This document shows, piece after piece, positions 563 to 35,108 of a stretch of 35,108 bases of DNA. Origin of the DNA: a virus; IMG/VR virus record IMGVR_UViG_3300030104_000578, positions 1 through 35,108 of that record. One strand, written 5' to 3'. Made by a program: the position numbers and the translations under genes. How positions within the stretch are numbered: position 1 is the first letter of the stretch; every line of letters begins with the position of its first letter. A model generated the notes under the pieces. That model worked only from the letters and a program-made list of their open reading frames with translations, was not told the origin of the DNA and searched no databases.

Positions 563-774
563 GACCCCTGACTCCCTACGTAGTTAATGACAAACCCCGC
601 AACAGCACCCGCTGTCGCAGCTACGCCCAGCAGCCAAGACTTCGACTGCTCAAGCTCCCGAAGCCGCTTGTCGTGCCTGTCCAGTTCCTCGTCATGGATA
701 GCTTGTCGTGCGATAAGCGCATCGACTTTCCCTTCAAGACGGCCAAGAGCGATCAGTATCTCGTTATCCATCAA
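559..774 (-). CDS. Holin-like protein: coiled coil plus one C-terminal membrane segment
   Basis: The protein has 71 residues. Residues 1-45 form a charged heptad-like helix (LEGKVDALIARQAIHDEELD), followed by a single hydrophobic segment (WLLGVAATAGAVAGFVINYV) and a short tail. This architecture resembles XhlA-type haemolysin/holin accessory proteins, and the position between tail fibre and small terminase is that of T7 gene 17.5 (holin). Start at 774 (MM) overlaps the preceding gene's stop by 4 nt. A role in inner-membrane permeabilisation at lysis is inferred from topology and location. Confidence 0.55.
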   Translation of the reverse strand: MMDNEILIALGRLEGKVDALIARQAIHDEELDRHDKRLRELEQSKSWLLGVAATAGAVAGFVINYVGSQGS

Positions 775-1394: not shown

Positions 1395-1405
1395 GCTGCC
1401 CCTCC

Positions 1406-3457: not shown

Positions 3458-3468
3458 AGGTCCTCCTA

Positions 3469-10613: not shown

Positions 10614-11323
10614 CAGTTACCTCCTCCGGGGAAAACGGCGTTTATGTATGCGTCTCCTGTAGAGTCTGCTGCCGCAGCGGCTGAAAGACGGTCTGGAGGA
10701 AGCTGCGCCCGATCTTCAGGCGTGTATAGGTCCATGTACGTTCCTGCCGCACCTGCCGCGACTGATCCGAGGCCGAAGATGAGAGACAGCGGGTTAGGTC
10801 CGGACGGAGCAGTACCAAGCGGAGCCATCGGGTCAGGGTACGACTGCTCAAGTGCGCTCTGTCCCTGAGCCACGATCCCTCGGACCTGCCTGTTTGCCTG
10901 TCGGATCTGCCCTTCGAGGTTTGTCCACACGACTTGCTGAGTCTCCGCGCCCAACCTTTGAGCCTCGTTCTGCAAGGCCCTGACCGTGTTTCCTGACATC
11001 TCATCCCTCGCCACCGCAATCGTCGAAGACGCGCCTCTTGCGTACCTTGCAGACTTCTCTACTTCGGTCATCGCTGCTTGCCTCATCTGGTTCACTCGCT
11101 CCATCATCGCGTTCGTCTTGTCAGTCGTAGATGCTTGGATAGCCGCCGCTTGCCGAAGGTAACGCTCGTTCTTCCAGTTCATCATCCGGATCTTGAAGTC
11201 GTTGTCACGCTTTACTTGTTCGGCAGCTTGACCTGCGGCAGCCTGCTGCCCCATGAAGTTCATGCCAAGTGCCCCCGCAGCGGCTACTCCTCCGACAATC
11301 GCAATCGTTGTGGGTTCACACAT
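10613..11323 (-). CDS. Internal virion protein B (gp14-like)
   Basis: A 236-residue protein (T7 gp14 is 196). The N-terminus is a hydrophobic Ala/Gly-rich segment (IAIVGGVAAAGALGMNFMG) followed by a long Gln/Ala/Arg-rich amphipathic helix to about residue 150, then a Pro/Gly-rich tail with a second Ala/Gly hydrophobic patch (LIFGLGSVAAGAAGTYMD). Small hydrophobic N-terminus plus long helix is the standard look of gp14 ejection proteins, which form the outer-membrane pore. ATG 11323 overlaps the preceding gene by 8 nt with Shine-Dalgarno AGGAGA. Confidence 0.8.
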   Translation of the reverse strand: MCEPTTIAIVGGVAAAGALGMNFMGQQAAAGQAAEQVKRDNDFKIRMMNWKNERYLRQAAAIQASTTDKTNAMMERVNQMRQAAMTEVEKSARYARGASSTIAVARDEMSGNTVRALQNEAQRLGAETQQVVWTNLEGQIRQANRQVRGIVAQGQSALEQSYPDPMAPLGTAPSGPNPLSLIFGLGSVAAGAAGTYMDLYTPEDRAQLPPDRLSAAAAADSTGDAYINAVFPGGGN

Positions 11324-11798
11324 GGCTTCTCCTGTTTTTGTTGATCAAAGCGAACTCGTAAAACGGCATTCCCTCAGGGCCGAACGGGCGTTCTCTAATA
11401 AATGTAAATCCTAACCACTTCACAAACTTGACATGCAGCTCGTTACGCACGTCCATCAAGTTAAACACCATGTCATACGGTGTCATCAGTCTCGGAAGGA
11501 TGTTCTTGCAGAGTCTTAAGAACGCGGTTGGGTGGCGTTCAATCTCTTCCGTACCTAACAGCCAGATACTGCCGAAGTCTGGGATAAGCTCCACGGGAGA
11601 GGTTCCAAGCATCGCAATAGGAAGATCGTCCGCCGTCATCGTGAAGCAGCTAGGCATACTTAGTTCCATCGCATTTGACAGGGCTAAGTACGGATCTACG
11701 GTTCCCGTAGCCTCTATCTCAGAAAGGTCCGCAGGCCGCATATCCGCCGCGATAATCTCTATATCAACGCCTTCTGCTGGTCTGATATCCAGTGACAT
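11316..11798 (-). CDS. Internal virion protein A-like (gp13-like, DUF2833)
   Basis: A 160-residue protein between tail tube B and the gp14-like gene, the position of T7 gene 13 (138 residues). The family is DUF2833. The C-terminal part (FLRLCKNILPRLMT, NELHVKFVKWLGFTFIRE) has the character of a GNAT acetyltransferase-like fold, as is typical for this family. T7 gp13 is needed for morphogenesis rather than being a proven enzyme, so catalysis should not be assumed. Start ATG 11798 overlaps the tail tube B stop (TAATG). Confidence 0.75.
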   Translation of the reverse strand: MSLDIRPAEGVDIEIIAADMRPADLSEIEATGTVDPYLALSNAMELSMPSCFTMTADDLPIAMLGTSPVELIPDFGSIWLLGTEEIERHPTAFLRLCKNILPRLMTPYDMVFNLMDVRNELHVKFVKWLGFTFIRERPFGPEGMPFYEFALINKNRRSHV

Positions 11799-24167: not shown

Positions 24168-24182
24168 GTTGGGATTCCCAAC
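24168..24182 (-). promoter_or_regulatory. 15-bp palindrome copy I, before DNA polymerase
   Basis: Perfect GTTGGGAATCCCAAC on the minus strand, between the primase-helicase stop (24184) and the polymerase ATG (24153). The Shine-Dalgarno AGAAAGAAG follows it directly, with 14 nt from palindrome to start. This is the last copy before the late genes. Confidence 0.9.
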
Positions 24183-24183
24183 A

Positions 24184-25779
24184 CTAGGTAGTTGGCACTT
24201 CGATAACTTCAGGAGCGATCCACTCATTGAGACGGCCAGTGTCTCCACTGTACTCAAGGACGGTCGCCATGCCCGTGTCCCCAGCATACCGATTCTTCAG
24301 GACTCTGAGGGCCATCATGCGTGACGTGCTTTCGTCCTGCTGATCACGCTCACATCCGATCACTGCATCACTGAGCTGAGCAATCGCATGAGACCCACGG
24401 AGCTGGCTAAGGCTCGTCGATCCGCCTTCCTCATGCGCCCTACCGTCTGGCCTTCGGAGATGGGACACGAGTACGAGGTGGATGTTTGTTTCCTCCACGA
24501 GCGACCGCAGTTTCGTCATCGTGTTGTCGATGGTCCGGCGTTCGTCTCCTGACTCCAGCGCACTGACGACGATACTCAGGTGATCAAGGAACACGTACTT
24601 GCACTGCATGGCGCGGGCCATGTATCTCACACGTGTCAGCAGGTTAGCTGGATCGATCGAACCCCAGTGGTCGTACAGCACCATGTTGCCCGAGCCGACC
24701 GTAGCGTCAAACGCTTCCTTCTTCTGCTCCATCGTGACACCCTGCTGAGTCCAGAGATGCGGCGGGATGTTCATCCGAAGTCCCATGATGAACTCGCTCG
24801 TCTTCTTGACTGACTCTTCCAGTGCGATGTAGCCCACCTTCTGGTTCATGTCCATCAAGTAGTACGCCAGCTCACGGGCAACGCTTGACTTGCCGATGCC
24901 TGTGCCAGCCGTCAGCGTCACCAGCTCGCCTCCTCGCATACCGAACAGCTTGTCATTGAGCGAGGGCCACGGGTACGGGATCGACGGGACCTGAGTGTCG
25001 TCAGTGATTACGTCCCAAAGCTCCTCGCCCGGTACGACACCATCAGGTCTGAAAGACTTCGCGCTGTATACGGCATCGATAAGCTCCTTGACCTTACCGT
25101 CTACGACGCAATCGTTAGCGTCCTTCAATGGCATCCCTGTAACGATCTTGGCCTTGCCGGGGCTGAGCTGCTGAGCAGCCTCAAGAGCGGCAGCCCTGCC
25201 CTGCGTATCCTGATCAAAGCACAGGACGACACTGTCGAACGACTCAAGCCAGTCAATGTTCTGGGCGATGACCCGAGCAGCCGACTTAGCTCCGTTCGGT
25301 ACGGAGACGACAGGCCACGTCAGGTTAAAGACCTGAGATACGGAAAGCGCATCAAGCTCACCTTCAGTGATGGTCACCATCTTGCCTGACTCTCGCCAGA
25401 GATGTGAGCCGAACAGGGACGCTTTCTTGGGGTCACCCAGCCACTTGAACGTCTTGTCAACGAACCTCAGCTTCTGGGCAACAAGGTTGCCTGACCCGTC
25501 CCTGTAGTTCGCTATCTGAACCGGGCGACCTTCGTAGGTCCCGATGCCGTAGTCGAACTTCTTGCACGTGTCCTCGGATATGCCCCGCTTCTGCAACGGA
25601 GCCACTTCGTAGTCGATTAAACCAGTCACTTTATGAGTCTCTTTCTGTTCTACCGGGTTTCCATCCCCGTGTTCGTAGTAATCACAACCAAAGCAGTACG
25701 CATGATTGTCCGTGTATCTCGCAAGATTATCTTTCGAGCCACATCTTGGACAAGGCTCGTGTCTTAGGAACTCGCTCAA
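24184..25779 (-). CDS. Primase-helicase (gp4-like)
   Basis: The likely start is TTG 25779, with GGAGG nine nt upstream, giving 531 residues (T7 gp4 is 566); the longer frame upstream is Arg/Trp-rich shadow sequence. Domains: zinc-binding CPRCGSKDN...YCFGC (Cys10, 13, 29, 32); TOPRIM primase with TEGELDALS (Glu about 139) and CFDQDTQG (Asp about 189, 191); then a RecA-like helicase with Walker A GTGIGKSS (about 292-299), Walker B-like YVFLDHLSIV and a GSHAIAQLSD region. It primes and unwinds at the fork with the gp5-like polymerase. The 5' end overlaps the RusA-like gene by 53 nt. Confidence 0.95.
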   Translation of the reverse strand: MSEFLRHEPCPRCGSKDNLARYTDNHAYCFGCDYYEHGDGNPVEQKETHKVTGLIDYEVAPLQKRGISEDTCKKFDYGIGTYEGRPVQIANYRDGSGNLVAQKLRFVDKTFKWLGDPKKASLFGSHLWRESGKMVTITEGELDALSVSQVFNLTWPVVSVPNGAKSAARVIAQNIDWLESFDSVVLCFDQDTQGRAAALEAAQQLSPGKAKIVTGMPLKDANDCVVDGKVKELIDAVYSAKSFRPDGVVPGEELWDVITDDTQVPSIPYPWPSLNDKLFGMRGGELVTLTAGTGIGKSSVARELAYYLMDMNQKVGYIALEESVKKTSEFIMGLRMNIPPHLWTQQGVTMEQKKEAFDATVGSGNMVLYDHWGSIDPANLLTRVRYMARAMQCKYVFLDHLSIVVSALESGDERRTIDNTMTKLRSLVEETNIHLVLVSHLRRPDGRAHEEGGSTSLSQLRGSHAIAQLSDAVIGCERDQQDESTSRMMALRVLKNRYAGDTGMATVLEYSGDTGRLNEWIAPEVIEVPTT

Positions 25780-26167
25780 CTCTAGCCACCTCCAATGTGA
25801 TGCCCGCCTCCTCTGAAAACTCCTTCGCCATTGAGGCCCAGACCAACTGGTCATCGTCCTCCCATACGACTCCATTCAAAACGTCGAGAGTCTTGAAGTA
25901 GTTGTCAACGTCCCCATTGGGGGTAGCTCGCTTTGACGTACGGGGCTTCACGACGTGAAACACCGCAGACACGGCAAGACTACCCTCCAAAGGGAACGAT
26001 CGAGGTAGCTTCGCATCCGCAAACAGATCCGCAGCGGTCTTGATGAAAGCCGTATATCGCTTTCCGTAGTAACACCGGCCCGTCCTAGTAAACCTAGGTC
26101 TGGACGCAGGGACGGGGTCAATCGGAATGAATACGGACCATCTGTGAGAGCCTCGGAAGGCTTTCAC
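25727..26167 (-). CDS. RusA-like Holliday junction resolvase
   Basis: GTG 26167, with GAGG upstream and 8 nt after the SSB stop, gives 146 residues, matching RusA-family length (about 120-150). The motifs PVPASRPRFTRTGRCYY near the N-terminus and GDVDNYFKTLDVLNGVVWED then DDQLVWASMAKEF in the middle supply the conserved D-x-D-N-x-x-K and D-D acidic residues used for metal-dependent cleavage. It occupies the place where T7 has endonuclease I (gp3), an unrelated resolvase. Its expected job is to resolve branched replication and recombination intermediates before packaging. The in-frame ATG at 26221 lies within the SSB gene and is less likely. Confidence 0.85.
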   Translation of the reverse strand: MKAFRGSHRWSVFIPIDPVPASRPRFTRTGRCYYGKRYTAFIKTAADLFADAKLPRSFPLEGSLAVSAVFHVVKPRTSKRATPNGDVDNYFKTLDVLNGVVWEDDDQLVWASMAKEFSEEAGITLEVARVERVPKTRALSKMWLER

Positions 26168-26174
26168 TTTGACC

Positions 26175-26780
26175 TCAGAAGTCGAAGTCCTCTTCGACGC
26201 TGGTGCTGCTCGTCTGCTCATTAGCTACAAAGCCCTCGACGACATCGAAGCCCCAGTCATCGCCCACTGACGACCCGGACTCACGAAGTTCGACTACTTG
26301 GACAACCTTCAGGCGCAAGGAGATCCCTGCACCAACCATCGGACTGACGTACGGAACGACTTCACACCCGACAGAGATACGGCTGCCCTGTCCAACCTCG
26401 ACAGACGTTGTATCGATCGGAGCCTTCTTGCTGTCCATGACAATCGGACGCTGCTCCCACCTGTCGTCACCGTTGACACCGATGGCCTTCAGCTTGAACT
26501 TGAAGACCCAGTTGCCGGTCTCGTTGCCGCCATCATCGACCTCTTCAACGAACGGAAGATCAGCTCGCTTCTTGAGGTTCGGCTTGGTCCGCTTCACGTT
26601 CTCGATGTGATCTTTCATCACGTCTTCGATCTGCTTCTTGACAGGCTCGGCATCCGCAGCCGACAGGATCAGGTCAACCTTGTACACGCCGTCCTTGTCG
26701 AACTTAGTGTCAGGCTTTGAGAGGCGCGGCCATCGTGCCGTACCAATCGGGGTGGTCAGTCTCGTGTGCTTACTAGGCAT
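26175..26780 (-). CDS. Single-stranded DNA-binding protein (gp2.5-like)
   Basis: A 201-residue protein (T7 gp2.5 is 232) with an OB-fold-like core; TTPIGTARWPRLSKPDTKFD then GVYKVDL and the YVSPMVGAGISLRLKVVQVV segment are typical of the marine T7-like gp2.5 group. The C-terminus is strongly acidic and ends in Phe (SVEEDFDF), the feature that docks gp2.5 to polymerase and helicase. It directly follows the RNA polymerase gene with an AGGAGA Shine-Dalgarno in an 8-nt gap. Confidence 0.92.
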   Translation of the reverse strand: MPSKHTRLTTPIGTARWPRLSKPDTKFDKDGVYKVDLILSAADAEPVKKQIEDVMKDHIENVKRTKPNLKKRADLPFVEEVDDGGNETGNWVFKFKLKAIGVNGDDRWEQRPIVMDSKKAPIDTTSVEVGQGSRISVGCEVVPYVSPMVGAGISLRLKVVQVVELRESGSSVGDDWGFDVVEGFVANEQTSSTSVEEDFDF

Positions 26781-26788
26781 GAGATCTC

Positions 26789-29194
26789 CTAACTGAAGTA
26801 GTACTTCGATTCTAGAACCTTGGAAACATCGAGTGTACCGACCTCCGGAGTCTCTGGCAAGACGACTCCAGAAGGCAGTAGAGCGGAGAACTGGTTCGTT
26901 AAGTCCTCCATTACGTTCTCTTTGAATATGTCAACAGTAGCCCCACGCACACACTCATTGATGGTGTCAAGGTCACATGCGGTCGTGCTGATGTTGTCGT
27001 GGACAGTCATGAAAGACTTCACATCTCTGTCCAATGCTTTGTTCACAGTAAGGCCAAGTATGCCGCCAAGGCCATCCAAGGAATGGACGAGGTTCGCGCA
27101 GATTCCGTTGATCGTCTTGCGCCTCGACTGCTTGCCGTTTGGTATCCGGAGCCGGTGCTGTCGCATCGTACCGCCGACCATCGTCTTGATGCTGTGCTTG
27201 CCCATGTTCTCGTAATGCATCTTGACAGGGAAGCCCAACGGAGTAACCCAGCGAGGCGTGATGCCGTTGTCAACGAACACCGTAGCACAGGCACGAAGCC
27301 AGTCCATGACGATCCTTGCGGACGCAACGACTTCACCAATCGATTCCCATATAAGCTCAGCAAGATAGTTGCAGGGCGCATAAGTCTCCTCTCCAAACGG
27401 GTTCGTCTTCTTCGGGTCCTTCAGTTGTTCGTAGAACCACTCAGCAGTGTACGTACGGCAACTGTAGAACACGGAGCCGTACACGAGAGTCATCGTCTGA
27501 CGTTTCGTCGTCTTGCGGTTGATCCCGAAAGCGAGCCACTTCGACGCATAAGGACTAGCGTTGTCTCGCTCAAGTTTCTCGATGACAAGATCTGCAACAA
27601 CTTCGTACGGGTCCTGAGGTGCGTCACCCGGCAGCACGTTCGTCGCTCTTGCGCCCACCGTATCTCGAAGCATCAACGTCAGAATCTGTAGTCCTTGAGT
27701 TGTCGCATCAACGCCGCACGGCAACGTCGTGACGAAGCTAGAGCCGTGCAGATGGACACGGTGAATCTCGATACACGCACTCAGGAACTCCCAAGGATCG
27801 TCAGCATCTGCCCATGACATTTCCTTGTTGTTGGGATTCCCAACAGCCTTGATCATGTTCAGGTTCGATTCAGCCCAAGCAATCCGACTTTCGTACGGGT
27901 CCTTGTCGAGACCCCACGATGAAGCGGCTTTGATGTACAGCCATTTGAGACCGCTGTCGTCAATCTTCTTGCCGTCCTTGAATCTCAGAAGACTCTTGAC
28001 GTAGCTCGGCCCTTGGGGCTGCAAGAAGTAAGGCACCGGATATCCGCGACCTCTGAAGTCCAGAGAGTGTGGGTAGTACAGGTCACTGCTGGCGAACTTG
28101 TTGGACAGGTTCAGAACCTTCATGACTTGCAGACGCTTGGACTTCTTACGTTCGTTCTCGAAGTGCTGGCGAGCCGCCGCCTTCCTCCACGCACGTCTCG
28201 CTTCCTCGTTCGTCGCAATGTCGGTCGGCTTGTTCGGGATCGGGTCGTCTTCCATGGACGGCACACCGCCTACGGGAAGATCTTTCTCCCAGCAGAACTT
28301 GACCCAGTCATATACTTCGTGATTGATTCTGTACCCCGTCCTTTGCAGGCCGTTGACGGCACGGTACACGTGTGTCATGTCGCAGCTACCGATGTCTTCG
28401 AGGTACGACTTGTCTCTCGTCTTGACCAGCGCACGGCGACCGAAGCACGTGGCTTGGTAGCCACCGAGATACGGGTTGTTCCAATCGACGGGTCGCTCCA
28501 CCATAGGAAGCCAGACCGGAGCAAGGGAATCCCTGTACTCATGGGAGTCCTTCATCCACTTCAGCAGGTCCTCTGTCGGGCGGATCATCGTGTACGACTT
28601 ACCCTTGGGATCTGCTTTCGTGACGATGTCGATGATGCCCGTGGCCTGCCTCATAAGCTCAATGCAGGTCAGCCCCACGGACGCTGCGTCCTTCCGATTC
28701 CACTGGGGCAGGACAAGCTCGTGGTAATTCGCCGTGTTGTTGATGAACTTGGACTTCGTCTTGTCGCTCTTGTATTTGTCAAGCACACGGTTGATCTGTT
28801 GCCACAGGGCAGGATTGTCTTCCTTGATCGTCCGGAACTTCAGCTCGTCTTCAAGAGTTCGGGCCAGCGTCAACGCCGTACTCGTGATCTTGCGGTCCAC
28901 GGATACGCAATCAAGTACGCACTTCGAGGTCAGAGCAGCGACGACGGGAGCGGGTAGCTGTTCAATGTACTGTAATGCGCGATGCCTACGGCCCGGAGCC
29001 TGCTCAGCCTTAGCTTTCCAACTGTTGATCTCAGATGTCAGCTTATCAATCGACTCTGCAAGTAAGTATTGACCTACTGCCGTGGTTGATTCCAGCTTCG
29101 TTTCCTTGGCTCTCTTGATCTTATGGTAATACCGCTGGCGGCCCATCTCGATCATCTCTTCTTCAAGCCGTCCTTGGCTCAGCTTCTTACTCAC
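26789..29194 (-). CDS. Single-subunit DNA-directed RNA polymerase (gp1-like)
   Basis: GTG 29194, with GGGAGGGG four nt upstream, gives 801 residues (T7 RNAP is 883); the frame extends upstream without stop but only as shadow of the sigma-like gene. Catalytic residues are all present: Asp496 in LPCGVDATTQGLQ, Lys564 and Tyr572 in TTKRQTMTLVYGS, and the HD of TVHDNIS in motif C, with the usual C-terminal LESKYYFS ending like the FAFA end of T7. Residues 451-455 (VGNPN) are encoded by one of the nine palindromes. It should transcribe middle and late genes. The specificity-loop region reads TMRQHRLRIPNGKQSRRKTI, unlike T7, so its promoter cannot be guessed from T7. Confidence 0.97.
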   Translation of the reverse strand: MSKKLSQGRLEEEMIEMGRQRYYHKIKRAKETKLESTTAVGQYLLAESIDKLTSEINSWKAKAEQAPGRRHRALQYIEQLPAPVVAALTSKCVLDCVSVDRKITSTALTLARTLEDELKFRTIKEDNPALWQQINRVLDKYKSDKTKSKFINNTANYHELVLPQWNRKDAASVGLTCIELMRQATGIIDIVTKADPKGKSYTMIRPTEDLLKWMKDSHEYRDSLAPVWLPMVERPVDWNNPYLGGYQATCFGRRALVKTRDKSYLEDIGSCDMTHVYRAVNGLQRTGYRINHEVYDWVKFCWEKDLPVGGVPSMEDDPIPNKPTDIATNEEARRAWRKAAARQHFENERKKSKRLQVMKVLNLSNKFASSDLYYPHSLDFRGRGYPVPYFLQPQGPSYVKSLLRFKDGKKIDDSGLKWLYIKAASSWGLDKDPYESRIAWAESNLNMIKAVGNPNNKEMSWADADDPWEFLSACIEIHRVHLHGSSFVTTLPCGVDATTQGLQILTLMLRDTVGARATNVLPGDAPQDPYEVVADLVIEKLERDNASPYASKWLAFGINRKTTKRQTMTLVYGSVFYSCRTYTAEWFYEQLKDPKKTNPFGEETYAPCNYLAELIWESIGEVVASARIVMDWLRACATVFVDNGITPRWVTPLGFPVKMHYENMGKHSIKTMVGGTMRQHRLRIPNGKQSRRKTINGICANLVHSLDGLGGILGLTVNKALDRDVKSFMTVHDNISTTACDLDTINECVRGATVDIFKENVMEDLTNQFSALLPSGVVLPETPEVGTLDVSKVLESKYYFS
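27830..27844 (-). promoter_or_regulatory. 15-bp palindrome copy H, inside the RNA polymerase gene
   Basis: Perfect GTTGGGAATCCCAAC read in frame as Val-Gly-Asn-Pro-Asn, residues 451-455 of the polymerase. In T7 RNAP the equivalent stretch reads AKSPLEN just before WWAEQDSP, so the palindrome occupies a variable loop beside a conserved block. Confidence 0.9.
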
Positions 29195-29723
29195 GAGTCC
29201 CCTCCCATTTCGCTTTGCACATTCTGAGACGCTGACACGCCCTTGACTCACTGTACCCATGATGGACACCGAGCTGCTTGAGCGTCATACCCCTTGACTT
29301 CATGATCAGGAACCACTGGTCATCGACGGGCAACTCACTGAACCCCGGAAGATCTGGCACTTCAACATCTGCGGGAGCTGCCGGGTCGAAGTTCCAATCA
29401 GGCCACTGAAATACGGGACGAGTAAAGGACCGAGTGTTGTACTTTCCTTTATCCTTGTCGTATTTGCGGATTGTCAGGATAGAGTTGTCCTTGCAGTATT
29501 TCGCATGTACGAAGCTGAACAAGCTGGTACGCAAGAAGGCTGAGATCGGCCCCCTGTTGTAATCGTATTTAGGCATCAGCTTCTCCAGTGTAAGTAAATA
29601 CGCTTCACTCAGCAGGTCATTGAACGTCCATAGCATGAACGACTTACGGCGAACGCCGCACCACAGCTTCACTTCGTCGTACAGGTTAAGAAGTTCGGCG
29701 CGACTCAGGTTCAAGTTTAGCAA
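29187..29723 (-). CDS. Sigma-factor-like protein (regions 2 and 4)
   Basis: Up to 178 residues. Residues about 33-75 (FNDLLSEAYLLTLEKLMPKY, DYNRGPISAFLRTSLFSFVH) follow the sigma-70 region 2 pattern, and residues about 131-172 (LPVDDQWFLIMKSRGMTLKQ, LGVHHGYSESRACQRLRM) follow the region 4 helix-turn-helix. A Pro/Asp-rich linker separates them, as in ECF sigma factors. The start is uncertain: TTG 29723 lies within the integrase 3' end and lacks a clear Shine-Dalgarno; GTG or ATG codons further in are possible. It ends 8 nt inside the RNA polymerase gene. It may redirect host RNA polymerase or be an anti-sigma/decoy; both are inference. Confidence 0.65.
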   Translation of the reverse strand: MLNLNLSRAELLNLYDEVKLWCGVRRKSFMLWTFNDLLSEAYLLTLEKLMPKYDYNRGPISAFLRTSLFSFVHAKYCKDNSILTIRKYDKDKGKYNTRSFTRPVFQWPDWNFDPAAPADVEVPDLPGFSELPVDDQWFLIMKSRGMTLKQLGVHHGYSESRACQRLRMCKAKWEGTRE

Positions 29724-30537
29724 TCGCAGATGTCAGGCTTGCAGGGGTCAGGTGGCTATACCTGAGGGTCGTCTTCAGGCTGTTATGACCAGCAAGCTCT
29801 TTGACAGCGGCGAGAGGGACTCCACGTTGGACGAGGCGAGAACAGAACGTATGACGGCACGTATGGAGAAGCGCACCCTCAAACGGGTGGACTACCCTGA
29901 ACGCTTTGATCTTATCATCGATCTGCTGATTAGTGAAGTCGAACGGCGGCTCACCTGTGCGGCACCATGACCTCCGGAGTCTCAGGATCTCGGCAGCACG
30001 GGCCGTCAACGGAATCGTACGCGGACGCTCCGTCTTCAGTTTCTGCGGGTCGGAAAGCGTGACAGTATTGCATATCGTGTCAACGTCGTCCCACAGCAGG
30101 CTGAGAGCCTCGCCCCTACGCATACCGGTGTCCATCAGAAACAGGAACAGGTCCCTGAGGTCGTGGTCGTCCATCGCATCAGACAGCTCTTGTTCCTCTT
30201 CCTGACTGTAGAACTTCAGACGGCCCGCAGATTCCTTCTGTTTCGGTATCTCAGGCTTCTGAGTGACAACGCCGTGCCTGACCCCGTATTTCAGGATCTT
30301 ACTGACCACGGCCAACTTGCGGTTGATCGTTGCCCCCGTATTGTTCTTCATCCTGAGATGGACAACGAAGTTCTCGATGTCAAACGACGTGATGTCCGCC
30401 AGTTTCTTCTTGTCGCCAAAGTAATCGACGACCTCTTCCATGCGATACTCGGTGGTGCGTCGAGACTTCTGCTGTGACCACTCCATCTTGTGGACGTAGT
30501 CAGCCATATCCCCGACTGTTGTAGGTGCGTTTGTCAT
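29686..30537 (-). CDS. int: Tyrosine recombinase / phage integrase
   Basis: A 283-residue integrase with a SAM-like N-terminal core-binding domain (residues about 5-95) and a complete catalytic domain: Arg140 in TGMRRGEALSLLW, Lys168, His225-x-x-Arg228 in LHTCRHTF, His251 in LAGHNSLKTT and the nucleophile Tyr260 in LRYSHL. It should catalyse site-specific integration, implying a temperate or latent ability, as known for some T7-like cyanophages with int just upstream of the RNA polymerase. Shine-Dalgarno AAAGG precedes ATG 30537, downstream of a conspicuous inverted repeat. The 3' end overlaps the sigma-like gene by 38 nt. Confidence 0.95.
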   Translation of the reverse strand: MTNAPTTVGDMADYVHKMEWSQQKSRRTTEYRMEEVVDYFGDKKKLADITSFDIENFVVHLRMKNNTGATINRKLAVVSKILKYGVRHGVVTQKPEIPKQKESAGRLKFYSQEEEQELSDAMDDHDLRDLFLFLMDTGMRRGEALSLLWDDVDTICNTVTLSDPQKLKTERPRTIPLTARAAEILRLRRSWCRTGEPPFDFTNQQIDDKIKAFRVVHPFEGALLHTCRHTFCSRLVQRGVPLAAVKELAGHNSLKTTLRYSHLTPASLTSAIAKLEPESRRTS

Positions 30538-30560
30538 GTTATGCCTTTCGTAAGAACGCG

Positions 30561-30614
30561 GGTCCCGCCTAGTACTCCGACATCAACCGGAGGCTGTTGT
30601 TACTAGACGGGACC
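30561..30614. repeat. Imperfect inverted repeat upstream of the integrase gene
   Basis: GGTCCCGCCTAGTA (30561-30574) pairs with TACTAGACGGGACC (30601-30614) with one mismatch that becomes a wobble pair in the minus-strand RNA. A second, inner stem CTCCG (30575-30579) / CGGAG (30588-30592) encloses an 8-nt loop. No U-run follows on the transcript, so it is not a standard terminator. It fills most of the 92-bp gap between the DUF932-like gene and int. Candidate attP core, recombinase arm site or leader structure. Confidence 0.7.
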
Positions 30615-30629
30615 ACGCGACTTGGAGGA

Positions 30630-31487
30630 TCAGAAGTCAGCAGCGATCAACGCAGGCTCAGTGTTGGGATTCCCAACGGAGAACCTGTCGTCGATGATGT
30701 CCGCCAGCCGTGCCATGCGACTGGACTGAGTCATCAGTGACGCGCCTCTGTCGTTGCTCGTGAATGCGTTCTCAAGGGACCAGACGTTGCGATCCTTGAA
30801 CTCGGGATGCTCAGGCTCTTCCCAGTGTTCAAGCACACGCATCGTAGCCGAGTTGCCCATCACGTTGGCCTTCGCAGCCTCCATGATGACGTACCTCGCA
30901 TCGTCGTCGGAACACTCGATGTTCTTCCATCGCTCGATGCGGGCAGTTTCAGCCTCTGCGGCAGGCAGGAGATGCGAGACGGCGTTGTCGATCAGCTCGT
31001 AGACATGCTCGAACTGACCCTCACGGTCCCTGTCGATGTTCTTCGTGTGCTTGCGGCGGAACTGAGCTTCTGCGCCCATGAACATACCGTTGCTGCACAC
31101 AGATACGCGACGACCAAGGCCTCCACCGGCTGACTTCGTCATGTCGTAGCTGTTGACGAACCCAGCTTCCCACGTCATCTCTGACGTACTGGGCAGGCCG
31201 GGGTGGGCGATGCCGTAAAGGCTGATGAACCGACCCCACTCACCCTGATCCTTGATCTTCGGGTTCTTCGTGGTCTTGGCGCGGTAGTGCGTCGGATCAG
31301 AGAGCTGAAACCCGTGACGACTGAACGCCTGCTCGATCATGTCCACGTACGTCTCATGAGGCAGGGGCCTCCACGTGTCCGGGCCGAGCTGAGGAACGCG
31401 AATCTTGCGAATCGTGTTCATGTCCACCCGCTCACCCCAGTTCTTCGGATCGAACGGGGTAGGGGCCGTGGGTGCGAGAGTAACCAT
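30630..31487 (-). CDS. DUF932-like phage/plasmid protein
   Basis: ATG 31487 with TTGGAGA upstream gives 285 residues. The central block GFVNSYDMTKSAGGGLGRRV then SVCSNGMFMGAEAQFRRKHT and KNIDRD is the recognisable DUF932 pattern (…S.D.S…V.C.N……RKHT…). DUF932 proteins are common on phages and plasmids, often early genes, with no settled biochemical function. The last 15 residues begin with VGNPN (271-275), encoded by palindrome copy G, so the C-terminus appears built over the regulatory element. The longer frame upstream to 31673 is shadow of the gene above. Confidence 0.75.
   Translation of the reverse strand: MVTLAPTAPTPFDPKNWGERVDMNTIRKIRVPQLGPDTWRPLPHETYVDMIEQAFSRHGFQLSDPTHYRAKTTKNPKIKDQGEWGRFISLYGIAHPGLPSTSEMTWEAGFVNSYDMTKSAGGGLGRRVSVCSNGMFMGAEAQFRRKHTKNIDRDREGQFEHVYELIDNAVSHLLPAAEAETARIERWKNIECSDDDARYVIMEAAKANVMGNSATMRVLEHWEEPEHPEFKDRNVWSLENAFTSNDRGASLMTQSSRMARLADIIDDRFSVGNPNTEPALIAADF
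30663..30677 (-). promoter_or_regulatory. 15-bp palindrome copy G, at the 3' end of the DUF932-like gene
   Basis: Perfect GTTGGGAATCCCAAC, in frame as VGNPN (residues 271-275 of 285) and 125 nt before the integrase ATG. It is the first copy upstream of int. Confidence 0.9.
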
Positions 31488-31540
31488 TTGAAATCTCCAA
31501 GTCTCTGCGAACTCAAGGGTGCCGCAGTAACCCGTGACGT

Positions 31541-31555
31541 GTTGGGAATCCCAAC
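31541..31555 (-). promoter_or_regulatory. 15-bp palindrome copy F, reversed centre
   Basis: On the minus strand this copy reads GTTGGGATTCCCAAC, the only one with the opposite central base. It lies 2 nt after the stop of the ribbon-helix-helix-like gene (31558) and 53 nt before the DUF932-like ATG, and is noncoding. Confidence 0.9.
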
Positions 31556-31557
31556 GA

Positions 31558-31773
31558 TTAGTGCAGCTTGTTCTTATCGTCCTGATAAGACTTGAAGCCA
31601 CGCCTGACAAGGTCCACGAGAACGTCGTGTTCGTCCACGTGCGTCTTCGGGAGACCCATCGCATCATGAACATTCTCGATGTTCTGACGGATGACGGAAA
31701 CCTGCTGTCTGATCTCAGGAGACAGACGGAGGTAGAGACCCTGACGGGACATTTTTCGAGTGCGAGAATCCAT
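31558..31773 (-). CDS. Ribbon-helix-helix-like small protein, candidate regulator
   Basis: ATG 31773 with GAAGGGG upstream gives 71 residues. The pattern RQGLYLRLSPEIRQQVSVIR, then a short insert, then DEHDVLVDLVRRGFKSY, matches an N-terminal beta strand followed by two helices as in MetJ/Arc/CopG-type DNA-binding proteins, whose dimers bind palindromic operators. It is preceded by its own TTGACA/TAAAAT promoter candidate and a terminator-like hairpin, and followed at once by palindrome copy F. This makes it a good candidate to bind the 15-bp palindromes, but the fold is judged by eye. Confidence 0.6.
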   Translation of the reverse strand: MDSRTRKMSRQGLYLRLSPEIRQQVSVIRQNIENVHDAMGLPKTHVDEHDVLVDLVRRGFKSYQDDKNKLH

Positions 31774-31797
31774 TCGTTTACCCCTTCTAAGGTAAGT

Positions 31798-31832
31798 AAA
31801 AGAGCGACACTTGTTCACTGCGGCAGTCGCTC
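31798..31832 (-). terminator. Terminator or attenuator hairpin before the RHH-like gene
   Basis: On the minus strand GAGCGAC (31832-31826) pairs with GTCGCTC (31808-31802), with a 17-nt loop that can form an inner ACTG/CAGT stem, followed by TTTT (31801-31798) and more Ts. It lies between the candidate promoter at 31873-31900 and the gene starting at 31773, so it may end early transcripts or act as an attenuator. Confidence 0.65.
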
Positions 31833-31856
31833 ACCTCCGCCACGAAAGGTCTGATG

Positions 31857-32021
31857 TCAACTCAAGTCATCTATTTTATCAGCCTTGAGTACTGTGTCAA
31901 CAAAGTCGATCTCTGCGTCGGAAAGCATGTGGACATGTTCTGGATTCTCCTTCAGGGAACGTGCGAAACGCTTAGCTGAATCGAGATTGCCCATGCCGAC
32001 ATAGCTTTCGACTAGGATCAT
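31857..32021 (-). CDS. Small hypothetical protein
   Basis: A 54-residue acidic helical protein, MILVESYVGMGNLDSAKRFA then RSLKENPEHVHMLSDAEIDF. ATG 32021 overlaps the upstream TGA (ATGA), indicating coupling; an AAGGAGG at 32052-32058 upstream would suit a CTG start at 32045, which is less likely. No family recognised. The gene's 3' third contains a sigma70-type promoter candidate for the next gene. Confidence 0.6.
   Translation of the reverse strand: MILVESYVGMGNLDSAKRFARSLKENPEHVHMLSDAEIDFVDTVLKADKIDDLS
31873..31900 (-). promoter_or_regulatory. Candidate sigma70 promoter for the RHH-like gene
   Basis: TTGACA (31900-31895), 16-bp spacer, TAAAAT (31878-31873) on the minus strand, inside the small gene at 31857-32021. 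Match is 6/6 and 5/6 to the consensus with the same spacer as the early promoter. It would give the RHH-like gene a promoter independent of the early operon. Confidence 0.55.
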
Positions 32022-32656
32022 TTGGTTCGTGAATATGATACGCAGGATGAGCCTCCTTGCTGGTCTATGAGACCCAAGAACCCGGTCTCCTTGTCATAGT
32101 GATACCGAGGCTCGTCGTCCGAGTGACAAACCTCCCAATCGTCAGCCATCGTCCATGCCATGAACTTAGCTTCGGCGTATTTGATCGCGTCATCCTTGTC
32201 CGCGAACCTGATCAACGTATTCGGGTAACGCTGACCGTCCACAAAGAACACGGGGTAATAGCTGACCGCATCGGACACGGACGTGACCGCTTTCTTGGCA
32301 GCACGTGCCGCGTACTCGTCGTCCACTTTGATGTAACTCATTGTCGTCTCCTTATTCTCGCGCTCCCAACGCTGGAGCATCGTCGTCAATGTTGATCTAG
32401 GTATACATAGAAACGCTGCTATGTCCACGCCGGACATGAATGGCAGCAAGTACTCGTTGGCGATGACGGCTAATCTCATCCGCGCATCGATGGCTGCCGT
32501 CTTTCTCGAATCAAGCATGTCGTCCAAAGTCAGGCCGAGGTTCTTGGCGATCTCCATGACCGAGTCACTGACCCGGCTGCGTAACTCGGCAGGAGTCGGA
32601 GCGATGTCATCGCCAAGGAACCATCGGCCCTCGTTTGGATCGTCAGTTACGAACAA
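32018..32656 (-). CDS. Helix-turn-helix protein with DnaA-domain-IV/TrpR-like segment; internal start
   Basis: TTG 32656 with AAGGAGG six nt upstream gives 212 residues and overlaps the upstream gene by 14 nt; the frame further upstream runs through palindrome copy E. Residues about 52-100 (RKTAAIDARMRLAVIANEYL, LPFMSGVDIAAFLCIPRSTL, TTMLQRWER) resemble the replication-initiator/TrpR-like helical DNA-binding fold, with a helix-turn-helix at about 76-97. At codon 106 an in-frame ATG (32341) is preceded by an ideal AAGGAG (32353-32348), so a 107-residue C-terminal protein may also be made. The C-terminal part has no recognised family. Candidate regulator or replication initiator. Confidence 0.6.
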   Translation of the reverse strand: MFVTDDPNEGRWFLGDDIAPTPAELRSRVSDSVMEIAKNLGLTLDDMLDSRKTAAIDARMRLAVIANEYLLPFMSGVDIAAFLCIPRSTLTTMLQRWERENKETTMSYIKVDDEYAARAAKKAVTSVSDAVSYYPVFFVDGQRYPNTLIRFADKDDAIKYAEAKFMAWTMADDWEVCHSDDEPRYHYDKETGFLGLIDQQGGSSCVSYSRTK

Positions 32657-33395
32657 GCTCGGCCTCCTTGTTGGGATTCCCAACGGCATAACTGTTGGCG
32701 GCGTTGCCATGGACGGTGATTGCGATGCCGGGTACGACTCTGGGCTTGTGACGCATCGCACCTGCACACAGGCCACAGTCAGCGCACGTGACACGGCGGC
32801 CCATCTCCGCTGACGATGGACAGACTAACTCCTGACGTGTCGGCTCCTGACCCTTGGGCATGACACGGAACGTGCGATAGCCGAGGGCCTGAGCATCGAG
32901 GACATCATCGTGAGTCTCGCAGGATGCCATGCATAGATCGGAGATGTCAGGACAATCACGCCACTGATGCGTATACCCCGTGAACGTCTTGACATTGGCG
33001 ATCAATGAACGCCAGACGGACGCAGGGACAGCCGCCGGATCTCCGTACGCACCGAGCCGTACCTTGCGACCTGACACGATCTCGCCAGCCTCGTCAGGAT
33101 CGACGGACTCGTAGTTACCCTTCTGGAATGACCGCCAGACAGACGCAGGACCCATGATGTTGACGTAGCACGTACGCTTGCCGCCGTTGGGCCTGTGGAT
33201 ACAGTCGCCACAGATCGCGTAGTCATCGCCAGACTTCAGAGCCTCACTCGGGTGCGAGTCACGCACAAGGATCCAAGTCTGGAGCATGTCGCCCGTCTTC
33301 GGATTGCTGGAACGCTTGTTGAGACCAGTAAGGATCGCAACGATCGGAGTCACGCCGTCACCGGGAAGATGACTGGGGCCGTCATAGATAATCAT
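32643..33395 (-). CDS. DUF7227-like conserved phage protein
   Basis: ATG 33395 with GAAAGGA upstream gives 250 residues. It has a recognisable conserved phage pattern: GLNKRSSNPKTGDMLQTWIL, GDDYAICGDCIHRPN, TCYVNIMGPASVWRSFQKGN, VRLGAYGDPAAVP, TGYTHQWR and a C-terminal CPSSAEMGRRVTCADCGLC. Paired C-x-x-C motifs suggest zinc binding. The family is widespread in phages and plasmids and has no known function. The last residues VGNPNKEAELVRN include VGNPN (238-242) from palindrome copy E. A 32-codon ORF overlaps its start and may couple translation. Confidence 0.75.
   Translation of the reverse strand: MIIYDGPSHLPGDGVTPIVAILTGLNKRSSNPKTGDMLQTWILVRDSHPSEALKSGDDYAICGDCIHRPNGGKRTCYVNIMGPASVWRSFQKGNYESVDPDEAGEIVSGRKVRLGAYGDPAAVPASVWRSLIANVKTFTGYTHQWRDCPDISDLCMASCETHDDVLDAQALGYRTFRVMPKGQEPTRQELVCPSSAEMGRRVTCADCGLCAGAMRHKPRVVPGIAITVHGNAANSYAVGNPNKEAELVRN
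32670..32684 (-). promoter_or_regulatory. 15-bp palindrome copy E, before the HTH gene
   Basis: Perfect GTTGGGAATCCCAAC at the 3' end of the DUF7227-like gene (in frame as VGNPN) and 13 nt before the TTG start of the HTH gene. An AAGGAGG Shine-Dalgarno follows the palindrome directly. Confidence 0.9.
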
Positions 33396-33480
33396 GGTCA
33401 GTATCCTTTCGTGTGAAATGGCAAAGGCTTGAGGAGGTGGGTAGTTTCTCAGGGTCGGCACTAGCCTGTGGGCTAGACAT
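33382..33480 (-). CDS. Possible 32-codon leader peptide
   Basis: ATG 33480 is preceded by AGGAGG (33491-33486) at five-nt spacing, the best Shine-Dalgarno in the neighbourhood. The frame reads MSSPQASADPEKLPTSSSLC and ends at TGA 33382, overlapping the first codons of the DUF7227-like gene. A CTAGCC/GGCTAG hairpin (33461-33476) lies in its early codons. It may be a translated leader coupling expression of the downstream gene. No family; coding status rests on the ribosome-binding site and overlap. Confidence 0.4.
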   Translation of the reverse strand: MSSPQASADPEKLPTSSSLCHFTRKDTDHDYL

Positions 33481-33557
33481 GTCTGCCTCCTACACTCTCC
33501 TCATTTACGATGCCGTCGCACCGCGCCTCTGCCCCTGCTTGCAAGGCAGGATGTCCG

Positions 33558-33737
33558 TTAGTCGTTCTCCTCAACGGGAGGTAAAGGCGTCAGCCGACCA
33601 AGATGGTCAGGGGAAGAGCTGAGGCCCGTGTAGATGATGAGCTGTCCGTCGTTGTCTTCTCCGATCTCCCAAATGGGAGACCCGAGCATGTCGGAAACAG
33701 CCTTGCAGAGTTCTTCCTTAGTCAGTGCCATTGGCAT
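33558..33737 (-). CDS. Small hypothetical protein
   Basis: ATG 33737 with GGAGG six nt upstream gives 59 residues, MPMALTKEELCKAVSDMLGS then PIWEIGEDNDGQLIIYTGL, ending in an acidic EEND. It overlaps the 3' end of the upstream gene by 20 nt. The LTKEEL…I.ED..GQ..IYTGL pattern looks like a compact alpha-beta protein of the type found in many phages, but I cannot name a family. Confidence 0.65.
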   Translation of the reverse strand: MPMALTKEELCKAVSDMLGSPIWEIGEDNDGQLIIYTGLSSSPDHLGRLTPLPPVEEND

Positions 33738-34218
33738 TGGAGTCCTCCAGATCGATTGGTTCAGAGTTCAGCCAGTCACGGTACACGGCTGCGCCATCGA
33801 CGTACGTGTCACCCTGATGGAAGTGGATGTGAACGTCGGGCCGATCATGGTGATAATCGATGTGGCTGAGGATCGAAGCGCGGGACATCGGTTCTCGAAC
33901 GTGGTTGTGGACATACGTCCAGCCTGACACCCCGACATTACGGAAGTGCCAGAGGTCTCGACGCTTCGGGCTGATGATCGCGTCCTCGTTGTACGAGAAG
34001 ATCGAGATGTGAGTGTAGATGTCAATGTTGAGCATCGGTCGCTCCATTCTGTTGGGATTCCCAACGCTTGCTTGTGCGCCGGGATCGATAGCGTTGATGA
34101 GATCAGCGATCAGACGGGCAGCCCCGCTGACCACCTTGGCGTTGTTGGTCTCAAAGCCTTCTTCATGGACGATCTCTGCGAGTCCGTCCTGAATCTTCTT
34201 CTGATCATTCGTATCCAT
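33718..34218 (-). CDS. Hypothetical protein with palindrome-encoded VGNPN between two parts
   Basis: ATG 34218, overlapping the upstream stop by 14 nt, gives 166 residues. The N-terminal part (1 to about 51) is helical (DGLAEIVHEEGF, AARLIADLINAID); then come VGNPN (52-56) and RMERP, and a second part starting MLNIDIYTHISIFSYNEDAI rich in His and Asp (HIDYHHDRPDVHIHFHQGD). The Met at codon 62 (34035) has its own GGAG six nt upstream, so the C-terminal 105 residues may be made separately. It could be two genes that read through each other because the palindrome has no stop in this frame. No family recognised; the His/Asp cluster might bind metal. Confidence 0.6.
   Translation of the reverse strand: MDTNDQKKIQDGLAEIVHEEGFETNNAKVVSGAARLIADLINAIDPGAQASVGNPNRMERPMLNIDIYTHISIFSYNEDAIISPKRRDLWHFRNVGVSGWTYVHNHVREPMSRASILSHIDYHHDRPDVHIHFHQGDTYVDGAAVYRDWLNSEPIDLEDSNANGTD
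34051..34065 (-). promoter_or_regulatory. 15-bp palindrome copy D, inside the 166-residue gene
   Basis: Perfect GTTGGGAATCCCAAC in frame as VGNPN (residues 52-56) and 15 nt before the internal ATG at 34035. The downstream flank AGAATGGA is shared with copy C. Confidence 0.9.
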
Positions 34219-34621
34219 TGTAGTTGCTCCAGTTATCGAGGGCAGTCTTGAACTTGTCGTGCGACGGATGCTTCTTCGTCCAGCCGTAGTCACACAAGAC
34301 CTCACAGGGTCGCTCGCCCGGAGTGAACATCGTACTGCCGACGTACGAGTCATCGAGAATCCAGACGATCGAGCAGTAATCGGCAGCGAATACGGCATCG
34401 ACAAGACCCTTGAGATTGTCTGGCGCGTTGTCTCCGATGCCGTCGCTGTCGTAGCAGACTTGGTCAGGCTTACAGCCCATCGACAGCAGTACGGTCAGGA
34501 CACTGGCGACAGCTTCGCGCCGTCCGAGGAGTCGAGAGTCACGCTCCAGCTTTTCGCAGATCGGACACTCGGTCTGAGTGATGTCGTATCGCCCGTGAAC
34601 CGGGCATGCGTGAGTCATCAT
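34205..34621 (-). CDS. Hypothetical protein with N-terminal zinc-ribbon-like motif
   Basis: A 138-residue protein starting MMTHACPVHGRYDITQTECP then ICEK, a C-x-x-H … C-x-x-C arrangement compatible with a small zinc ribbon. The remainder includes DSDGIGDNAPDNLKGLVDAV and a C-terminal Trp/Tyr-rich stretch. No family recognised. It starts 16 nt after palindrome copy C and ends overlapping the next gene, so it is part of the first operon from the early promoter, where T7-like phages keep host-takeover genes. Confidence 0.65.
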   Translation of the reverse strand: MMTHACPVHGRYDITQTECPICEKLERDSRLLGRREAVASVLTVLLSMGCKPDQVCYDSDGIGDNAPDNLKGLVDAVFAADYCSIVWILDDSYVGSTMFTPGERPCEVLCDYGWTKKHPSHDKFKTALDNWSNYNGYE

Positions 34622-34637
34622 GAGTCATTTCCATTCT

Positions 34638-34652
34638 GTTGGGATTCCCAAC
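34638..34652 (-). promoter_or_regulatory. 15-bp palindrome copy C, between the first two early genes
   Basis: Perfect GTTGGGAATCCCAAC two nt after the TAA of the first gene (34655) and 16 nt before ATG 34621. It takes up nearly half of the 33-nt intergenic gap and is noncoding. Confidence 0.9.
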
Positions 34653-34654
34653 GA

Positions 34655-34861
34655 TTAGCTGACAACCTTCGTGATATGTCCGTTCTGGACGACGACCGTA
34701 GCGTACCAGCGGTGAGCCTGCGGAAAGTGCGGACCTTCGCAGCAGTGTTGACCGTCTGAAACGTCTGACCCGAACGGACCCGGCTGATGACACGGGACAG
34801 GACCAGCGGCGACAGCTTCTTTCAAAGCCTTCTTCGTCTTGAAGTTTTCATTGGAGTACAT
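34655..34861 (-). CDS. First early gene: small conserved phage protein
   Basis: A 68-residue protein, FKTKKALKEAVAAGPVPCHQ then PGPFGSDVSDGQHCCEGPHF and PQAHRWYATVVVQNGHITKV. The 'KTKKALKEAVAAG … PGPFG … EGPH(F/Y)P..H.WYA…NG.I.KV' pattern is one I recall from short uncharacterised proteins of varied phages. Shine-Dalgarno AAAGG precedes ATG 34861, 22 nt after palindrome copy B and about 80 nt after the early promoter start. Probably an immediate-early protein made by host RNA polymerase; the function is unknown. Confidence 0.75.
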   Translation of the reverse strand: MYSNENFKTKKALKEAVAAGPVPCHQPGPFGSDVSDGQHCCEGPHFPQAHRWYATVVVQNGHITKVVS

Positions 34862-34883
34862 GATGAGTCAACCTTTCGTGAGT

Positions 34884-34898
34884 GTTGGGATTCCCAAC
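34884..34898 (-). promoter_or_regulatory. 15-bp palindrome copy B, in the early leader
   Basis: Perfect GTTGGGAATCCCAAC in the leader of the first early gene, about 50 bp downstream of the -10 box and 22 nt before ATG 34861. It is followed by ACTCACGAAAGG containing the Shine-Dalgarno. Confidence 0.9.
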
Positions 34899-34907
34899 GA
34901 TGTGAAC

Positions 34908-34941
34908 GTGGAACGTAGGCTCGTGCCTACCTCGATTCCAC
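34908..34941 (-). promoter_or_regulatory. 5' hairpin of the early transcript
   Basis: GTGGAA (34941-34936) pairs with TTCCAC (34913-34908), and inside it GTAGGC (34930-34925) pairs with GCCTAC (34920-34915) around an ACGA loop, with a small asymmetric bulge. Transcription from the early promoter should begin near 34941, placing this hairpin at the extreme 5' end, where such structures often protect mRNA. Confidence 0.65.
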
Positions 34942-34956
34942 ACGTATATTATACGT
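34942..34956. promoter_or_regulatory. Second palindrome, over the early -10 box
   Basis: ACGTATATTATACGT is a perfect 7-1-7 inverted repeat centred on the -10 element, with the same geometry as the dispersed palindrome but a different sequence. Part of the symmetry comes from TATAAT itself, so it may be an operator or coincidence. Confidence 0.5.
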
Positions 34957-34975
34957 TATTCGTTTCTTATGTCAA
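34948..34975 (-). promoter_or_regulatory. Early host sigma70 promoter
   Basis: Exact TTGACA (34975-34970), 16-bp spacer, exact TATAAT (34953-34948) on the minus strand, directed at the whole early operon. It is the strongest host-type promoter seen in the window and is where host RNA polymerase would start after DNA entry. The -10 box sits inside a perfect 15-bp palindrome, and 15-bp palindrome copies lie on both sides. Confidence 0.88.
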
Positions 34976-34986
34976 GTCTACAGTTT

Positions 34987-35001
34987 GTTGGGATTCCCAA
35001 C
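34987..35001 (-). promoter_or_regulatory. 15-bp palindrome copy A, upstream of the early promoter
   Basis: Perfect GTTGGGAATCCCAAC 11 bp upstream of the -35 box. It lies outside the transcript of that promoter, which favours a DNA-level function for the element. Confidence 0.9.
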
Positions 35002-35108
35002 GATGCTGGAACTTCTGACGCTGGAACAACTGACGGCGACTACTGTCACGCACTGTCACGATCGCGGAACTCCTGACGGCAGCCACTGTCACGTTTACTG
35101 TCACGCGG
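35002..35108. repeat. Noncoding end region with two interleaved short repeats
   Basis: ACTGTCACG occurs at 35042-35050, 35052-35060, 35085-35093 and 35097-35105. GGAACNNCTGACGGC occurs at 35023-35037 and 35066-35080, with a slightly shorter copy at 35008-35021. The pattern suggests a duplicated block of about 45 bp. No gene is visible. Its position at the early end recalls the short repeat arrays beside the terminal repeats of T7 DNA, but whether this is a true genome end cannot be judged from the window. Confidence 0.75.

Follow-up and report, generated by a model that had tools for sequence, protein, structure and literature searches.

Dispersed palindromes in the early region of T7-like phages as candidate operators of phage-specific repressors

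What is the role of a perfect 15-bp palindrome that recurs nine times among the early and replication genes of a T7-like phage? The stretch of DNA in question, hereafter the window, is the IMG/VR virus record IMGVR_UViG_3300030104_000578 (35,108 bases, truncated, genes on the minus strand), which shows the traits of a T7-like (Autographiviridae-like) phage: a single-subunit RNA polymerase (RNAP), a DNA polymerase, a gp2.5-like single-stranded DNA-binding protein and a primase/helicase, all encoded on one strand. An initial annotation had likened the palindromes to the stoperators of L5-like mycobacteriophages, that is, oriented repressor sites at gene boundaries of a prophage, and had named ribbon-helix-helix (RHH)-like and helix-turn-helix (HTH) proteins of the window as possible binders. 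We consider it likely that the palindromes are the operators and stoperator-like sites of a phage repressor silencing early transcription by the host RNAP. The layout and the notion of repeated regulatory sites at early-gene boundaries are upheld by the analysis described here, whereas the orientation, the RHH/HTH binder and the strict prophage link are not.

The palindrome GTTGGGANTCCCAAC was found in nine exact copies in the window, at the very positions given by the initial annotation. A search of all 35,108 bases for GTTGGGAATCCCAAC with up to three mismatches returned no other match, and the late region (1-24167), in which no copy had been seen, is empty even at this tolerance. The chance expectation is close to zero, dinucleotide shuffles giving 0 for the degenerate 15-mer. 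The earlier description of the surroundings was also reproduced: on the transcribed (minus) strand the centre base is A in eight of the nine copies, the exception being that at 31541; a pyrimidine precedes and an A follows every copy (9/9); and five copies lie 13–22 nt before a start codon (34884, 22 nt; 34638, 16 nt; 34051, 15 nt; 32670, 13 nt; 24168, 14 nt). The others are found at gene junctions, at gene 3′ ends or, for 27830, inside the RNAP gene. The centre of the copy orthologous to that at 24168 is the opposite base in the relatives L028 and L043, so that the centre appears free and the site a true dyad, not an oriented element; copies in L069 and L068 carry T at the centre throughout. 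The orientation claimed for the sites is hence not supported, since each is a perfect palindrome whose centre is free. The flank bias (pyrimidine before, A after) is also seen around the dispersed copies of L006 and L065 and is absent around the sites at the putative repressor genes of L067, L069 and L068. Single matches to GTTGGGANTCCCAAC in some 30 unrelated viral contigs, one per contig, look like chance, and these contigs were rejected as true bearers.

Comparison with close relatives indicates that the sites are constrained. In L006, which shares 87% identity over 6.5 kb, each of the four copies that can be aligned has kept its sequence, with flanks 78–98% identical; as 27% of all 15-mers are unchanged in this relative, four out of four would occur by chance with a probability of about 0.005. 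The copy at 24168 is retained in L028 (83%), L043 (86%) and L041 (98.8%). A conserved peptide motif behind the in-gene sites was considered and rejected: three such sites encode VGNPN in the window, and the matching places of L065 give VASCY and, read in a different frame, CSNLL. Such differing peptides and frames place the constraint on the DNA. These comparisons support the reading of the palindromes as regulatory sites that act as DNA, recur at the borders of early genes and are kept by selection.

A primase-based search provided 80 relatives, which were screened with a detector of repeated near-perfect palindromes; many of them gave a family. About 18 of the 21 T7-like records (the window included) carry a palindrome family of their own, 14–16 bp long, with 4–18 copies in the same region. 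The detector returned no family in any of 78 shuffled controls and recovered 16 TACTCACGTGAGTA-like copies from phiC31 (L086), late region included. The palindrome of L065, whose integrase and RNAP are 49% and 54% identical to those of the window, is GTAGCAASTTGCTAC (seven exact copies and one with two mismatches, early region), and a third, CGGGGKATMCCCCG, occurs six times in L066. Further families comprise TCGGAGANTCTCCGA in G013 (12 copies), CCGGGGANTCCCCGG in G014 (12), TCGGGGATTCCCCGA in G015 (11), TCTGTAGNNCTACAGA in G017 (9), CTTGTCATGACAAG in G018 (15), CTGGGACGTCCCAG in G019 (10), TTCTAGTCACTAGAA in G026 (11) and TCTAGGATCCTAGA in G027 (15), together with TTTACAGNTTGTAAA-like copies in G022 (12) and, under permissive settings, GTATACCNNGGTATAC-like copies in G021 (18, some of them in the late region). 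G020 has no palindrome family and G029 none that is convincing.

Outside these records, eleven T7-like phages put through the same detector gave no convincing family. MarR-type T7-like phages, Pasto, LUZ100, BB8, pelagiphages and roseophages were without one; in HTVC200P the detector listed four copies of an AT motif of low complexity. No dispersed palindrome system was found in the cultured T7-like phages that were examined, and most of these carry an integrase. No relatives of the RNAP were found in bacterial genomes, and more distant primase relatives there are mostly without such a family, L204 having one. Searches of the open-access literature turned up no description of a comparable system for T7-like phages, and its absence from the cultured ones examined bears out the earlier remark that none was known.

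The context of the sites was assessed over 189 sites on 18 contigs. Eighty-five of them lie 3–45 nt before a Shine-Dalgarno sequence and start codon, compared with 25.4 ± 4.7 for random positions (maximum 42 in 2,000) and four sites on the opposite strand. A σ70-like promoter (at most one mismatch) is present 45–130 nt upstream of 18/189 sites and of 0.5% of random positions. Typically, a promoter is followed by a leader, which in many cases holds a hairpin, then by the palindrome, a ribosome site and the gene, with further copies downstream.

Positions were examined by a rotation test, the results of which cover two gene families. In 10/10 genomes a site falls within −50 to +20 of the 3′ end in the gene family represented by 30630-31488 in the window, a conserved protein without PHROG match; the expectation was 0.88 genomes, and no more than 5 were reached in 20,000 rotations. 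Of 12 integrase-less genomes, 11 have a site at the start of the RNAP gene, against 1.67 expected. Positions are shared by descent among related phages, and these counts are therefore not independent events; the key point of the position data is, as we read the alignments, the exchange of sequence at kept positions. G013, G015 and G028 carry three different palindromes at the same codons of the DNA polymerase gene, and G013 and G015 have other palindromes in the stretch matching the copy inside the window's RNAP gene. Between G026 and G027, which share 88% DNA identity over 36.8 kb, all eight alignable sites nevertheless differ. Likewise, the palindromes of G017, G018 and G019 are different, their primases being 95–98% identical, and phages this close differ both in the candidate repressor gene described below and in the palindromes at matching places.

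The best candidate for the binding protein lies beyond the window's edge. Contig IMGVR_UViG_3300001450_000655 (L067), with 77–83% DNA identity to several stretches of the window's late genes (208-11926), extends past the window's left end and there carries terL, three small genes, two palindromes of the window's type (1029 and 763) and, on the minus strand, a gene for 223 aa (73-744) whose start directly follows a palindrome copy. L069 has the same arrangement, with the candidate gene from 4176 onward. Moreover, the terL of G011, which at its locus L043 shares 86% identity with the window, matches the L067 terL at 100%. From this alignment and the terL identity, the window's phage very probably possesses this gene just outside the record. 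A gene bracketed by palindromes was seen in genomes with a complete region, for instance G013, G014, G015, G017–G019, G021–G023, G026, G027, L065 and L067, encoding 200–300 aa with Lys/Ala-rich ends. Judged by its placement, this bracketed, hypervariable gene between terL and the early promoter most likely encodes the repressor. At the same place the near-complete G020 (L197, L198) has only a 129-aa gene, possibly a natural loss.

The candidates gave no match in Pfam, NCBIfam, PADLOC or the sequences of the PDB, and homology among them was detectable only for L067/L069, L065/G014, G021/G022, G026/G027 and G023/G027. A search for further relatives with the L067 protein returned itself and L069 only; these two, which share a palindrome, resemble each other in a putative recognition stretch (GVLHEWA/GVVYEWA). 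For the L067 protein AlphaFold gave a helical model (pLDDT 73), and DNA-binding domains of ParB, Spo0J, KorB, Noc and SopB fill most of its best 10 rows in a fold comparison (Z 5.2–7.3), a weak resemblance of the predicted structure to ParB/KorB DNA-binding domains. No N-terminal CTPase domain was recognised by Pfam in the 223-aa protein, the N-terminus being of low complexity and low confidence.

Two further elements were noted near this gene. One is another inverted repeat, TTGACAATCNATTGTCAA-like, situated after the terL module and ahead of the candidate gene in contig order or its reverse (L067 1006, 1053 and 1151; L069 ~3755; L065 ~155), in the interval that separates the two. A conserved AATCTGAGACCCTATAAAAGGGAC block follows the last late genes (L067 ~1199-1222; L069 3699-3722; L065 79-102) and was not found elsewhere in the window; it might be a phage-RNAP signal or a packaging end.

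The RHH protein was rejected as the general binder. Its gene (31558..31773, minus strand) has no detectable counterpart in most palindrome bearers, and its model gave weak fold matches (Z ≤ 4.3), including TacA2, a MazE-type antitoxin and Reg576. L066, the first integrase-less relative seen, is also without the RHH gene; an early exact-arm scan gave no palindrome there, and a mismatch-tolerant scan then revealed its family. The binder proposed by the initial annotation thus gives way to the gene next to terL.

Within the window, the arrangement is as follows, all features being on the minus strand. Copy 1 (34987..35001), a putative operator and an exact match, stands 11 nt upstream of the −35 hexamer of an early σ70-like promoter, TTGACA (34970..34975), which is separated by a 16-nt spacer from the −10 hexamer TATAAT (34948..34953), with no mismatch across both hexamers. 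A stable hairpin (GTGGAA..GTAGGC-ACGA-GCCTAC..TTCCAC, 34908..34941) is predicted in the leader between the promoter and copy 2, as are hairpins in most other leaders folded. Copy 2 (34884..34898) follows it in the leader, ahead of the ATG at 34861, so that copies 1 and 2 stand on either side of the promoter and the first early ORF (34655..34861, 68 aa) follows the operator pair. Copy 3 (34638..34652) precedes the ATG at 34621, and copy 4 (34051..34065) likewise stands before an ATG. Copy 5 (32670..32684) is located at the 3′ end of a conserved gene (32643-33395), a place that holds a different palindrome in G010/L065 and in G013. Copy 6 (31541..31555), with the flipped centre, comes directly after the RHH gene, and the corresponding place in L065 is occupied by a copy, its centre flipped too. 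Copy 7 (30663..30677) falls within the 3′-terminal part of 30630-31488, at a distance of about 125 nt ahead of the tyrosine integrase gene (29686..30537; PF00589, 6e-22; PHROG integrase). Copy 8 (27830..27844) encodes VGNPN within the RNAP gene (26789..29194; likely start 29194, longest ORF to 29269), which was recognised by tblastn to phage RNAPs. Copy 9 (24168..24182), the one kept in L028, L041 and L043, lies in the interval between the primase/helicase and DNA polymerase genes, before the ATG at 24153.

Short direct repeats were observed upstream of the early promoter, at 35048-35108 in the window (CGTGACAGT, four copies), and comparable ones at ~1495-1580 in L065 (GTGATAGAC-like) and 94-157 in L066 (CTGATAG-like). 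The window's exact palindrome also occurs as a pair, 99 bp apart, in another phage, L068 (L034), at 266-280 and 365-379, where it flanks TTGACA-17-TATTGT before the contig's first gene (HTH-like, partial) in the same layout. This contig has no detectable similarity to the window, and its terL belongs to PHROG 2.

Building on the sites, their constraint, their promoter and start context, their conserved positions with turnover and the bracketed gene, we propose that in each phage one dimeric, phage-encoded repressor binds all copies. The two copies bracketing the σ70-type early promoter would serve as operators, at which bound repressor blocks initiation, and repressor bound at the downstream copies of the same transcription unit would stop or block the host RNAP in a stoperator-like manner. 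The early operon, with its small early genes and those for the integrase, the phage RNAP and replication, would be silenced in this way, either in a lysogen or after the repressor has accumulated, and silencing would confer immunity of matching specificity. The palindromes around the repressor gene itself would provide autoregulation, and each phage line would own a repressor/palindrome pair.

Several observations weigh against this proposal. The window's own repressor gene falls outside the record; the candidates are too diverged to be demonstrated as a single family; and the ParB-like match is moderate only (Z ≤ 7.3 for a helical model with pLDDT 73), without sequence support. In one permissive test, operator distances of repressor-homologous pairs were only slightly lower than those of other pairs (p = 0.045). 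About two thirds of the palindrome bearers, several of them near-complete, are without a detectable integrase, and lysogeny is not implied for these. Among the 21 records, the tyrosine integrase was found only in the window, L065/G010, G013, G014, G015 and G028, and a serine recombinase in none. A link of the palindromes with integrase was rejected on these grounds, and the absence from most bearers indicates that the system does not depend on this integrase; the strict prophage link of the initial annotation is likewise not supported. The integrase-less members may be virulent, with early shut-off or exclusion, or silent without integration, or their integration genes may have been missed.

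Lytic early shut-off, in which the same protein-DNA system would stop host-RNAP early transcription once the phage RNAP takes over, is the rival that survives best, albeit as an unlikely one. The near-complete genomes of 39–41 kb without tyrosine or serine integrase or ParA (G019, G021, G022, G024, G026 and G027) speak for it, as do the sites directly before the RNAP gene in integrase-less genomes. However, the window and five relatives carry an integrase, and a private, fast-changing specificity fits competition for immunity and is less expected of a purely internal timer.

We regard RNA elements as improbable. The palindrome RNA folds as a hairpin, and a 6-bp mRNA hairpin bound by a phage protein could act in translation control or, as lambda nut/boxB, in antitermination; N/boxB pairs are phage-specific too, and many sites indeed lie in 5′ leaders directly before Shine-Dalgarno sequences. 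The symmetry nevertheless runs through the centre, where an RNA loop would be expected, with the innermost pair complementary in 95 of 109 odd-length sites (a feature the detector favours). Copy 1 and sites of L068 and L067 are upstream of the early promoter or promoter region, several sites lie inside genes or at 3′ ends, and no Rfam match was obtained.

Still less probable are sites of a centromere (parS-like) or iteron type, by which an extrachromosomal prophage would be partitioned or replicated. The ParB-like model of the L067 protein, the dispersal of the palindromes and the many relatives without integrase would suit such sites, but ParA (PF13614) was found in 0/21 records, some of them fragments, and the palindromes stand at promoters and start codons across the early operon instead of being clustered. 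Promoters of the phage single-subunit RNAP, to which identical 15-mers repeated before the genes of a T7-like phage might point, are extremely unlikely, since no copy occurs in the late region (1-24167), which requires phage promoters, and the sites are perfect palindromes, some intragenic and many behind σ70-like promoters, whose sequences differ between phages with 95–98% identical primase. Phage-RNAP promoters and RNA hairpins, both named by the initial annotation as alternatives, are accordingly disfavoured.

The repressor reading therefore retains our preference, and the layout points to lock-and-key silencing that is re-keyed at all sites together in this group. Whether a repressor with scattered sites, its specificity exchanged as a whole, operates throughout this clade of T7-like phages, most of them integrase-less, is a more tentative matter, which we consider possible, somewhat short of an even chance. 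If true, it would require either a concerted rewriting of many operators or a very rapid arms race between operators and repressor, and would imply a silenced state with no need for integration. Dispersed operators across the clade would bring this group a second mode of control over lysogeny or the early genes. The close sets G017/G018/G019 and G026/G027, with different sites at the same positions, make testable how a repressor and about ten scattered sites change specificity together, and would offer a natural series of repressor/operator pairs for studying protein-DNA recognition.

Among known systems, the repressor sites of phiC31 are conserved inverted repeats, and resemble those described here in being dispersed palindromes, present in many copies and mostly intergenic. 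They differ in running through the late region also; phiC31 has no T7-like polymerase, and its repressor is much longer (ORF c, 2,052 bp). In SPbeta, a 15-bp element, SPBRE, is repeated at many promoters and bound by one master repressor, MrpR, an inactivated tyrosine recombinase (PMC10516654); the reported SPBRE sites are promoter regions, whereas here genes and intergenic stretches carry sites as well, and the candidate is predicted to be helical and HTH-like. KorB of plasmid RK2, a ParB-superfamily repressor with dispersed operators and an N-terminal CTPase clamp, works with KorA and in partition (PMC11790492). Dispersed operators would be common to both, and a KorB-like DNA-binding fold is suggested by the L067 model; the 223-aa candidate differs by the lack of a recognisable CTPase domain and of ParA. 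Closer in genome type are the MarR-type lysogeny modules of the T7-like phages LUZ100, Pasto and HTVC019P, in which an integrase-adjacent MarR protein has been proposed to exert control near the RNAP promoter (PMC10134795). As in the window, the integrase gene stands close to that of the RNAP and a repressor is proposed, but LUZ100, Pasto and HTVC019P are without a dispersed palindrome family, and no MarR gene lies directly upstream of the window's integrase, where 30630-31488 is located (other early genes were not all scanned).

The stoperators of L5-like (cluster A) mycobacteriophages, recognised by the repressor gp71/Rep, are 13-bp, asymmetric sites, oriented with transcription and bound by a monomer (PMC9283540, PMC6550527). 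Both systems place many copies of one short site at an early promoter and at downstream gene boundaries, and pair phage-specific sites with what would here, too, be phage-specific repressors. The sites described here differ in being 14–16 bp palindromes with a free centre, in belonging to T7-like phages that have their own RNAP and a candidate repressor without sequence match to known structures, and in that whole site sets differ between very close relatives. The comparison with stoperators is, on this analogy, one of layout and not of membership.

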